64,000 nucleotides of DNA from an uncultured Bacteroidota bacterium (GTDB lineage Bacteria; Bacteroidota; Bacteroidia; Chitinophagales; LD1): NCBI GenBank assembly GCA_903861145.1, contig CAIOTH010000065.1, positions 1 through 64,000 on the forward strand. The letters run 5' to 3'. Below the pieces are notes generated by a model. That model searched no databases. It saw nothing but the letters and a program-made list of their open reading frames with translations, and was not told the DNA's origin. Position numbers and translations under genes: made by a program. Below are positions 26,278-34,061 of the stretch, piece after piece. Each line of letters opens with the position of its first letter. Position 1 is the first letter of the stretch.

Positions 26278-26357
26278 AAAGCGGCAAAGAAACCAGCAAG
26301 CTGACCCTGCTCTTTCTATGCCGCACATTTAATTAATAACCCAAAAAAGATTCAAAG
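26278..26357 (-). repeat. Diverged unit 0 of the hairpin array, possible small RNA
   Basis: On the minus strand a T-rich start followed by GGGTTATTAATTAA resembles the 5' half of the other units. It runs into a long interrupted hairpin (GCGGCA...TGCCGC with inner AGAAA/TTTCT pairing) and seven Ts, a strong terminator. The similarity to the other units is weak, so membership is tentative. Confidence 0.45.
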
Positions 26358-26407
26358 CCGAATCTTTTATCTTAATGCCCCTGAGGCCTGAATTTTAAAA
26401 AGAGGCA

Positions 26408-26467
26408 GGTGGCGTTGCCACCACCCACCTTCCGACTTGTTCACCCATGAACAACCCATAAAAAATT
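26408..26467 (-). repeat. Unit 1 of the hairpin array, possible small RNA
   Basis: The 5' half on the minus strand (T-run, ATGGG, then the palindrome TTGTTCATGGGTGAACAA) matches units 2 and 3. The 3' half has a different terminator: stem GGTGGC/GCCACC (26408-26422) followed by TCTTTTT. A conserved head with an unrelated terminator argues that the head is the part under selection. Confidence 0.6.
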
Positions 26468-26532
26468 TAACCCTGATTACCTGCTCTATATTCTATTCAA
26501 TAATCTATTAAACCTTAATCCAACTCTACACT

Positions 26533-26612
26533 AAAAACAACAGAGGGGCGGCAACAGATACATTGCCGCCCTTGTTGTTTTGTTCACCCATGAACAACCC
26601 ATAAAAAGTTTG
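26533..26612 (-). repeat. Unit 2 of the hairpin array, 80-bp element
   Basis: This segment matches unit 3 at 78 of 80 positions, and both differences lie in the hairpin loop. On the minus strand it begins CAAACTTTTTATGGG, contains the 7-bp palindrome TTGTTCA/TGAACAA and a GC-rich hairpin (GGGCGGCAA/TTGCCGCCC), and ends exactly in TTTTT. Identity stops at both ends, as if the transcript itself were conserved. Confidence 0.75.
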
Positions 26613-26677
26613 TAGCCGATATCAATGATTTATATTTTGTTCTACTACTATTCAACTTTACTTATTACTTTCTATTG

Positions 26678-26757
26678 AAAAACAACAGAGGGGCGGCAAC
26701 GGACACATTGCCGCCCTTGTTGTTTTGTTCACCCATGAACAACCCATAAAAAGTTTG
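26678..26757 (-). repeat. Unit 3 of the hairpin array, 80-bp element
   Basis: Direct copy of unit 2, starting 145 bp further on. The spacers between units are AT-rich and not conserved. An overlapping mini-ORF on the minus strand starts MGCSWVNK in units 1, 2 and 3 and then diverges over the hairpin, so a leader peptide cannot be excluded. No clear TAnnTTTG element was found before the units. Confidence 0.75.
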
Positions 26758-26861
26758 AATTCTGAATTTGCATCACCTTAAATTTTTAAACTGAAAGGTT
26801 ATAAGCGCGCGTAAACACACACGTGTGGAATGCAAAAGTCCACATCAATAAATTTGGGGTA

Positions 26862-32298: not shown

Positions 32299-33699
32299 TT
32301 ATAATTTAATGGTTTGCAGCAGGGCGGCAAACGTATTAGTTACCAATGAATAATTAATTACACTCTTCATTAAGCCCACTTTAGCTTCAACATAATCGCG
32401 CTGCGCTTGTATAAAATAATCCTGCGCGGTATTTAACTCAATAATGGATGAAAGCCCGTTTGTATAGAGGCTTAACTGTTGGCTATATGCCGATGCTGCC
32501 GCATCTAATTGATGCCTGGTTTCGACTAAGCGGTTATGCTGAAAATCCTTTTCGAGCAGTGCCTGCTGAACATCGCTACTTAAATTAGCTTTTTCGTTTT
32601 GAAGTTGGTGATAAGCGGCTTCGCTTTGAAAGCGATAAATGTTCGAGTTCAACTTTTTATGCGCAATGTTGAGGATGTTGTAGGTCATGGTTAACCCTAC
32701 CAGGTAATTAAACCTGCTGGGTTGATACCCTTGCAACAATTCGCTATTATACTGGTCGGTATTGCTCAAGCTTGAACCCCTGCCCCACGCATCAGCATCT
32801 AAAAATATTTTGGGGTAGTAACTTTTCTTTTCCAATAGCAAACGGGCGCGGCTTTGATCGTAAACCGATGAATAGAGGTTGATGTATGGATGATGAATAG
32901 TATCGGCTGTAATTGAAAAAACAAATGCCGCCCCATCCACATTCACCTTATTCTCCGAGGCTGTATCAGGATTAAGTTGCCCTGCAGCCAAACCGGTCAG
33001 GTTTGACAATTGCACCTTGGTTTGAGCCAGATTTTTTTGTGCCTGGTAAAGTGCAATAATAGATTTTGACAGTTCGGCTGAAGCCACTGAACTGTCAACC
33101 CCGGGCCTCACCCCATTTCTAACCAAAGCATCTATGGTGGTTTTTAGTTGCTGCAACCGTACCACATTGTTTTGCTGTACGTTTTGCAATTCAAATTGCC
33201 TTATCAACTCAAGGTAATAAGCCGATGCATAGCCCTGCAAATTATATTGGGTGGTAGCAAGCGTATTCATTTGCACTTGTAAATCCGATTTAGACAGGTC
33301 CTCTCGGGCTTTATAAGCACCAAAATTTACTGCCTCCCAGTTAAGATCAAGTATGGCGGCATCACCCGCCACCGGGCTTAAATTGCTTTGTGCACGCACC
33401 CCACTTACCACCGAGGGTATCATTCCATAAGATTGGTATGACCCTTCGAGGTTATTATCTGAATTTATGGTAGCCTGCAACATTCCGGTTAACTGTGGTA
33501 ACCGGTCATATTTTGTAGCTTTTACAGCCGCCTGTCTTGCTTGCACTAAACTGCCCTCCCGTTTAAGCAACTCGTAATTATCGCTCATCGCATTTAATAA
33601 TTGCTGCAACGATAGGGGCTGCTCCGCCTTTATACCAGTCGCTCCCCCTACACAAGTACAACAAAACACAAGGCAAACAACTTTCTTAATACAATTCAT
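32299..33699 (-). CDS. TolC family outer-membrane efflux protein
   Basis: 466 residues with a signal peptide (KKVVCLVFCCTCVGGATG). Two OEP repeats are visible: N-terminal LSLQQLLNAMSDNYELLKREGSLVQARQAA and C-terminal LETRHQLDAAASAYSQQLSLYTNGLSSIIELNTAQ, each with the long Gln/Ala-rich helices that form the periplasmic tunnel. It provides the outer-membrane exit of the RND pump and is the first gene of that operon. Its leader (33700-34061) contains a strong hairpin. Confidence 0.93.
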   Translation of the reverse strand: MNCIKKVVCLVFCCTCVGGATGIKAEQPLSLQQLLNAMSDNYELLKREGSLVQARQAAVKATKYDRLPQLTGMLQATINSDNNLEGSYQSYGMIPSVVSGVRAQSNLSPVAGDAAILDLNWEAVNFGAYKAREDLSKSDLQVQMNTLATTQYNLQGYASAYYLELIRQFELQNVQQNNVVRLQQLKTTIDALVRNGVRPGVDSSVASAELSKSIIALYQAQKNLAQTKVQLSNLTGLAAGQLNPDTASENKVNVDGAAFVFSITADTIHHPYINLYSSVYDQSRARLLLEKKSYYPKIFLDADAWGRGSSLSNTDQYNSELLQGYQPSRFNYLVGLTMTYNILNIAHKKLNSNIYRFQSEAAYHQLQNEKANLSSDVQQALLEKDFQHNRLVETRHQLDAAASAYSQQLSLYTNGLSSIIELNTAQDYFIQAQRDYVEAKVGLMKSVINYSLVTNTFAALLQTIKL

Positions 33700-34061
33700 G
33701 GGTGGAAATTTTAACTATATCTATCAAAAACGGCTGAGTAGCGAAAAACCAGCCTGCTGACACGACCGGCCTCCGCCACGTATTCACCCAAAATAAAATG
33801 CACAGTTCCAAAAATCTTTTCTCAGTCATAACGCCTTTATATTTTATGGACAGGTAGCGAAGTTTAAGGCCTGGGAGGCCCTCCTCGCTACCCTTTACCC
33901 ATAAAACCTTATACAATATTTATTACAGCTTAAATGATTTTGAACTAACCATACATTACAACTATTCATAGGCCATTAAATGCTTTCTAAGCAAAAAATA
34001 ATGCCACGGCACATCGTTTATGTTCAATACAAAAACGAGTGATCAATAAAAGCCGGTAAAA
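33700..34061. other. Leader/intergenic region before the efflux operon, with a large hairpin
   Basis: 362 bp. GGTAGCGA (33853-33860) pairs with TCGCTACC (33885-33892), enclosing an inner GGCC/GGCC pairing. The element is in the likely 5' leader of the minus-strand tolC-RND-MFP operon. No T-run follows, so a terminator is unlikely; a regulatory RNA fold or operator is possible. No credible ORF. Confidence 0.55.

Follow-up and report, generated by a model that had tools for sequence, protein, structure and literature searches.

A lineage-restricted tandem array of structured RNA elements behind a small-protein gene in an uncultured Bacteroidota bacterium

The window analyzed here, a stretch of 64,000 nucleotides from an uncultured Bacteroidota bacterium (source genome G000), carries on its minus strand three copies of one element, spaced 143-145 bp apart between positions 26393 and 26757. 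The array lies behind a gene for a small protein, a paralogue of which is encoded elsewhere in the window next to tolC (Table 1). Two tandem, paralogous Cro/C1-type HTH proteins are encoded on the other side of the array, and the first of these reaches 96-98% conservation across four related genomes, much more than its neighbours.

Table 1. Features of the array and of the tolC locus in the window
Feature	Position	Strand	Remarks
Unit 3	26678..26757	-	head CAAACTTTTTATGGGTTG; H1 26725-26742, loop UGGG; H2 about 26680-26725; model R1 103 bits
Unit 2	26533..26612	-	layout as unit 3; H1 26580-26597; H2 about 26535-26580; model R1 104.8 bits
Unit 1	26393..26469 (about)	-	head and H1 (26437-26454) as in other units; H2 differs (about 26403-26433), good U-run; model R1 73.9 bits
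Unit 0 of the original prediction	26278..26330	-	canonical intrinsic terminator behind array; not convincing as member
Stretch before first unit only	26758..26784	-	70% of columns invariant in three species
Small protein, 138 aa	26862..27278	-	N-terminus hydrophobic; block FKLYRLIQVFLI at C-terminus; array always downstream
Cro/C1-type HTH protein, 107 aa	25669..25992	-	first of two tandem paralogues
Cro/C1-type HTH protein, 107 aa	25105..25428	-	second of two tandem paralogues
Small-protein paralogue, 120 aa	34062..34424	-	upstream of tolC, TolC/RND efflux operon
TTTTATGGGTAA and long hairpin behind paralogue	33826..33908	-	second, weaker class
Leader between paralogue and tolC	33699..34061	-	L077 in G011
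CACCCATGAA at tolC start codon	33695..33704	-	fully complementary to UUCAUGGGUG of H1; no more than a candidate target

The original prediction had described near-identical 80-bp hairpin units, and on re-checking the same figures were obtained: units 2 and 3 match at 78 of 80 bases (98% identity), and both differences fall within a hairpin loop, namely the apical loop of the second hairpin (H2), where one of them adds a pair in unit 3. The conserved minus-strand block begins CAAACTTTTTATGGG and contains the 7-bp palindrome that had been noted, TTGTTCA-TGGG-TGAACAA, which in the units of G000 forms the first hairpin (H1) with a UGGG loop. Unit 1 indeed combines the same head with a different hairpin, and the spacers are unrelated as claimed, with 14-17% of their columns invariant across three species. 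Other parts of the description needed revision. The block was said to end exactly at the T-run of a terminator; it ends in a paired 3' arm, UGUUGUUU, and the U-run is not dependable, with tails reading UGUUGUUUCCC, UGUUGUUUCAAGG or UGUUGUUAUUUAUU in relatives and a weak U-tract in several copies. Unit 0, proposed as a weaker relative, scored 25.8 bits in a 21-kb search, went unreported genome-wide and lacks the AUGGGU hairpin. We rejected it as a fourth member: it is a terminator (GCGGC...GCCGC followed by U7), and the related loci have unrelated terminators at about the same place.

The fold of each of the three units beats all 200 dinucleotide-preserving shuffles (z from -4.6 to -4.8), and a search for the 21-base head at up to 3 mismatches found these units as its sole copies in the 4.7-Mb genome. 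Each copy has AUGGGU in the H1 loop, and a second AUGGGU stands just before H1 in most copies; the UGGG of H1 is predicted to be unpaired, and when units are folded in isolation the first AUGGGU is mostly paired.

Orthologous arrays were found in 5 of the 18 genomes of the genus, G000 included, using BLAST and covariance searches. The covariance-model search had been named as a check in the original prediction, and it recovered further copies, with covariation, in four related genomes: 3 copies in G006, 3 in G011 (the last cut by the contig end), 1 in G012 and 2 diverged copies in G017. In a 12-copy alignment fitted to the model, 94.9% of the cells pair, both sides change in 11 of the 23 base pairs, and 27 further pair types are seen; because the structure guided the fitting of this alignment and its copies share ancestry, the covariation count is not a probability. 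None of 500 shuffles reached any of five covariation measures of this alignment, and sliding the partners by 1-3 columns lowered the pairing to 38-59%. The cleanest single compensatory case comes from G017, the most diverged of the array genomes, in which H1 reads TCTCA-TGGGT-TGAGA as compared to GTTCA-TGGG-TGAAC, so that two arm pairs have changed together with CAUGGGU left intact. Covarying pairs, the mark of a structured RNA, are thus present across homologues.

In pairwise comparisons of G000, G006 and G011, identity is 94-100% for the heads of units 3 and 1, 76-82% for that of unit 2, 55-71% for the adjacent open reading frame and 23-46% for the spacers. Judging from these identities, it is the element that is conserved, not the region surrounding it. 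The stretch directly before the first unit (Table 1) may hold a promoter or a site of processing. Units 2 and 3 are near-identical in G000, and the copies of G006 and G011 resemble each other by position across species, a pattern that suggests homogenization of the two G000 copies, limited to the element.

A search of the remainder of the 398 genomes of the order with model R2, which was built including all array copies of the five genomes, retrieved no true member outside these five; searches over more than 40 genomes ran with stricter filters, by which diverged members may be missed. Weak matches in two genomes of the order (G056 and G362), as well as five weak matches within the genus, turned out on inspection to be generic terminators without the head, and the string GGTTCATGGGTGAACRA is confined to one G011 copy. 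A dispersed mobile (REP-like) repeat was also rejected, as there is one locus per genome and the exact head is absent from viral contigs. At gathering thresholds, Rfam reported only a tRNA in the whole window. The family is a structured RNA without an Rfam match, so far confined to five genomes of one genus.

The array has a fixed genomic partner. In all five array genomes it lies 100-170 nt behind the small-protein gene, on the same strand, and the element is likewise missing from those genomes of the genus that yielded no small-protein gene in a direct protein search. In G013 the gene sits at a contig end, so that this genome is uninformative, and the distant homologue in G001 is not accompanied by the element. 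The gene downstream of the array varies, being a Cro/C1-type regulator in G000, G006 and G012 and a convergent gene in G017, and G013 has such a regulator without an array; it is the small protein, and not the regulator, that goes with the array. Homologues of the small protein were seen in G006, G011, G012, G013 and G017, with more distant ones in another genus (G020, G023 and G025), and genes of the family often stand immediately before a TolC/RND efflux operon. The homologues beside arrays have 117-138 aa, a hydrophobic N-terminal YxLHLxFFQxLM, a variable middle and a C-terminal block resembling FKLYRxxRVFLI that ends at the stop codon. The protein looks exported and has no match in Pfam or NCBIfam; its layout recalls that of the secretion-monitoring arrest peptides (SecM, VemP).

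Behind the paralogue upstream of tolC we found an element of a second, weaker class, with a model score of 16.8 bits (E = 0.03). The string TTTTATGGGT occurs at 33 sites in the genome, compared with 32 for the reversed control; when 29 distinct sites were examined, z fell below -3.5 in four of them, namely the three array units and this element. Common descent of the element and the array units is suggested. In G011, similar elements go with another two paralogues; the copies on G006:C223 and G017:C1 are without them. In the leader between the paralogue and tolC, UGGGU pairs in cis with the tolC start in two minimum-energy folds, those of G000 and G011.

At the level of sequence, the analysis establishes for the array a two-hairpin RNA structure, covariation, confinement to the units and a fixed place behind one small-protein gene, and the array appears to represent a new regulatory RNA family of narrow distribution. 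As the best explanation we tentatively propose a lineage-restricted, tandem structured RNA of about 75-80 nt, expressed from the minus strand and working as a base-pairing small RNA. Such an RNA could be a free transcript or could arise by release from the 3' part of the transcript that encodes the small protein, and H2 could end transcription in some copies. The AUGGGU of H1 would pair with ACCCAU at the start codons of some mRNAs, and the tandem copies would raise the dose of the small RNA. In this respect the original prediction of duplicated sRNA genes holds in part: covariation, orthologous arrays and unit-confined conservation point to a duplicated noncoding RNA on the minus strand, but independent genes of about 80 nt are not established, with no recurring promoter and weak U-tracts in several copies.

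Within the window, the best candidate target would be the tolC mRNA, 7 kb upstream, whose start carries CACCCAUGAA, an exact complement of UUCAUGGGUG in H1. The duplex with tolC was the best among 50 window genes (-22.4 kcal/mol), a match noticed before the duplex test was run, and 16 of 200 shuffled heads equalled that best duplex over the same 50 genes. Counts of CACCCATGAA, the one string compared in the 18 genomes, were no higher in array-bearing than in array-free genomes. The tolC start of G006 does not pair with the motif, and no close tolC homologue was found in G012 and G017. Three paralogous exported proteins of G000 (MKPxLFxLIFWGC...; L143, L148 and L153, on contigs C29 and C33) share UCACCCAUGAA at their start codons and otherwise have different leaders.

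The units might instead be cis elements of the small-protein mRNA, that is, 3'-region hairpins that stabilize, process or terminate this mRNA, or bind a protein via UGGG, with no free RNA being made. This is a serious possibility, and fits the array's strict same-strand link with the small-protein gene and the changing identity of the next gene, as well as the elements behind the paralogues, which are not terminators. It also fits a promoter-like TATTTTTA, found at similar distances ahead of the small-protein gene in G000, G006 and G011; a search for a promoter-like site recurring before the units found none. However, the head is conserved far better than the protein that it would serve, and tandem duplication with unrelated spacers is unusual among 3'-UTR elements. 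We consider it slightly more likely that the units are small RNAs acting via the exposed AUGGGU than that they are cis elements; the two readings stay close in view of the weak U-tracts and of the finding that the units share no promoter in front of them. It is improbable that the array is nothing more than a chance duplication of intrinsic terminators: terminator-like sites were called on the minus strand at all three units, and unit 1 has a good U-run, but the head, which is the most conserved part, would be superfluous in a terminator, the weak model matches elsewhere are generic terminators lacking it, and a separate strong terminator stands behind the array.

It is very unlikely that TTGTTCA-N4-TGAACAA serves as a DNA operator, a palindromic site for the neighbouring Cro/C1-type regulator. 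The palindrome does occur in several copies and an HTH gene is nearby in three genomes, but in G017 it is the arms that change and the centre that stays, whereas a dimer operator would keep its arms; H2 covaries too, and neither the G017 array, which has no adjoining regulator, nor the array-free regulator of G013 agrees with such a role. As for the leader peptides starting MGCSWVNK that the original prediction had offered as another option, their frame opens in some form in 9 of 11 complete copies, but start, frame and C-terminus are not kept among copies: unit b of G006 has no start, in G017 both copies meet a stop codon directly after MG, the frame is shifted by indels of 1-2 nt in the loops, and the C-termini bear no relation to one another. 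We rejected this option as highly implausible. A second ATG frame (MGEQ...) fails in the same way, though both substitutions that separate units 2 and 3 happen to be silent in it.

The preferred reading, a base-pairing small RNA, can be set beside known systems. FopS sRNAs of Bacteroides bind near the start codons of outer-membrane protein mRNAs by proposed pairing (PMC11697453). The array resembles FopS/GibS in belonging to the same phylum and in comprising paralogous, multicopy short RNAs with a 3'-side hairpin. FopS, however, has a single-stranded 5' seed and 14 copies, while the array holds its motif partly in a hairpin loop and has 1-3 copies at one locus; the units thus do not follow the FopS-type order of a single-stranded 5' seed and then a terminator hairpin, as the extra H1 loop holds the motif. 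The Rfam GibS model (RF04182) gave 20.4 bits (E = 2.4) against the array, with a cut-off of 115. A further mark of the FopS/GibS family is that the RRM protein RbpB binds its members. LhrC of Listeria and Qrr of Vibrio have been named as multicopy sRNAs (PMC11697453). They share with the array several near-identical copies, a common motif and divergent surroundings, but belong to other phyla with no known sequence relation. Small RNAs derived from 3' regions in bacteria follow a coding gene whose strand they share, end in a hairpin and are usually single. The array has the same placement and hairpin, but is tandem with unrelated spacers.

A more far-reaching scheme, which we regard as rather unlikely, joins the small exported protein and the AUGGGU hairpins into one cassette, partly tied to the RND efflux operon. 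The tolC start codon would be masked by AUGGGU, in trans where the motif comes from the array and in cis where it lies behind one of the protein copies; this masking would be set or relieved as the small protein is translated, perhaps through stalling.

With the array, a Bacteroidota lineage whose regulatory RNAs are hardly mapped gains an RNA family that is supported by covariation and has no Rfam entry. The array also ties this RNA family to an unnamed family of small proteins, which is found at RND efflux operons as well, and since the linkage to the gene is tight, the function of the RNA is directly testable.
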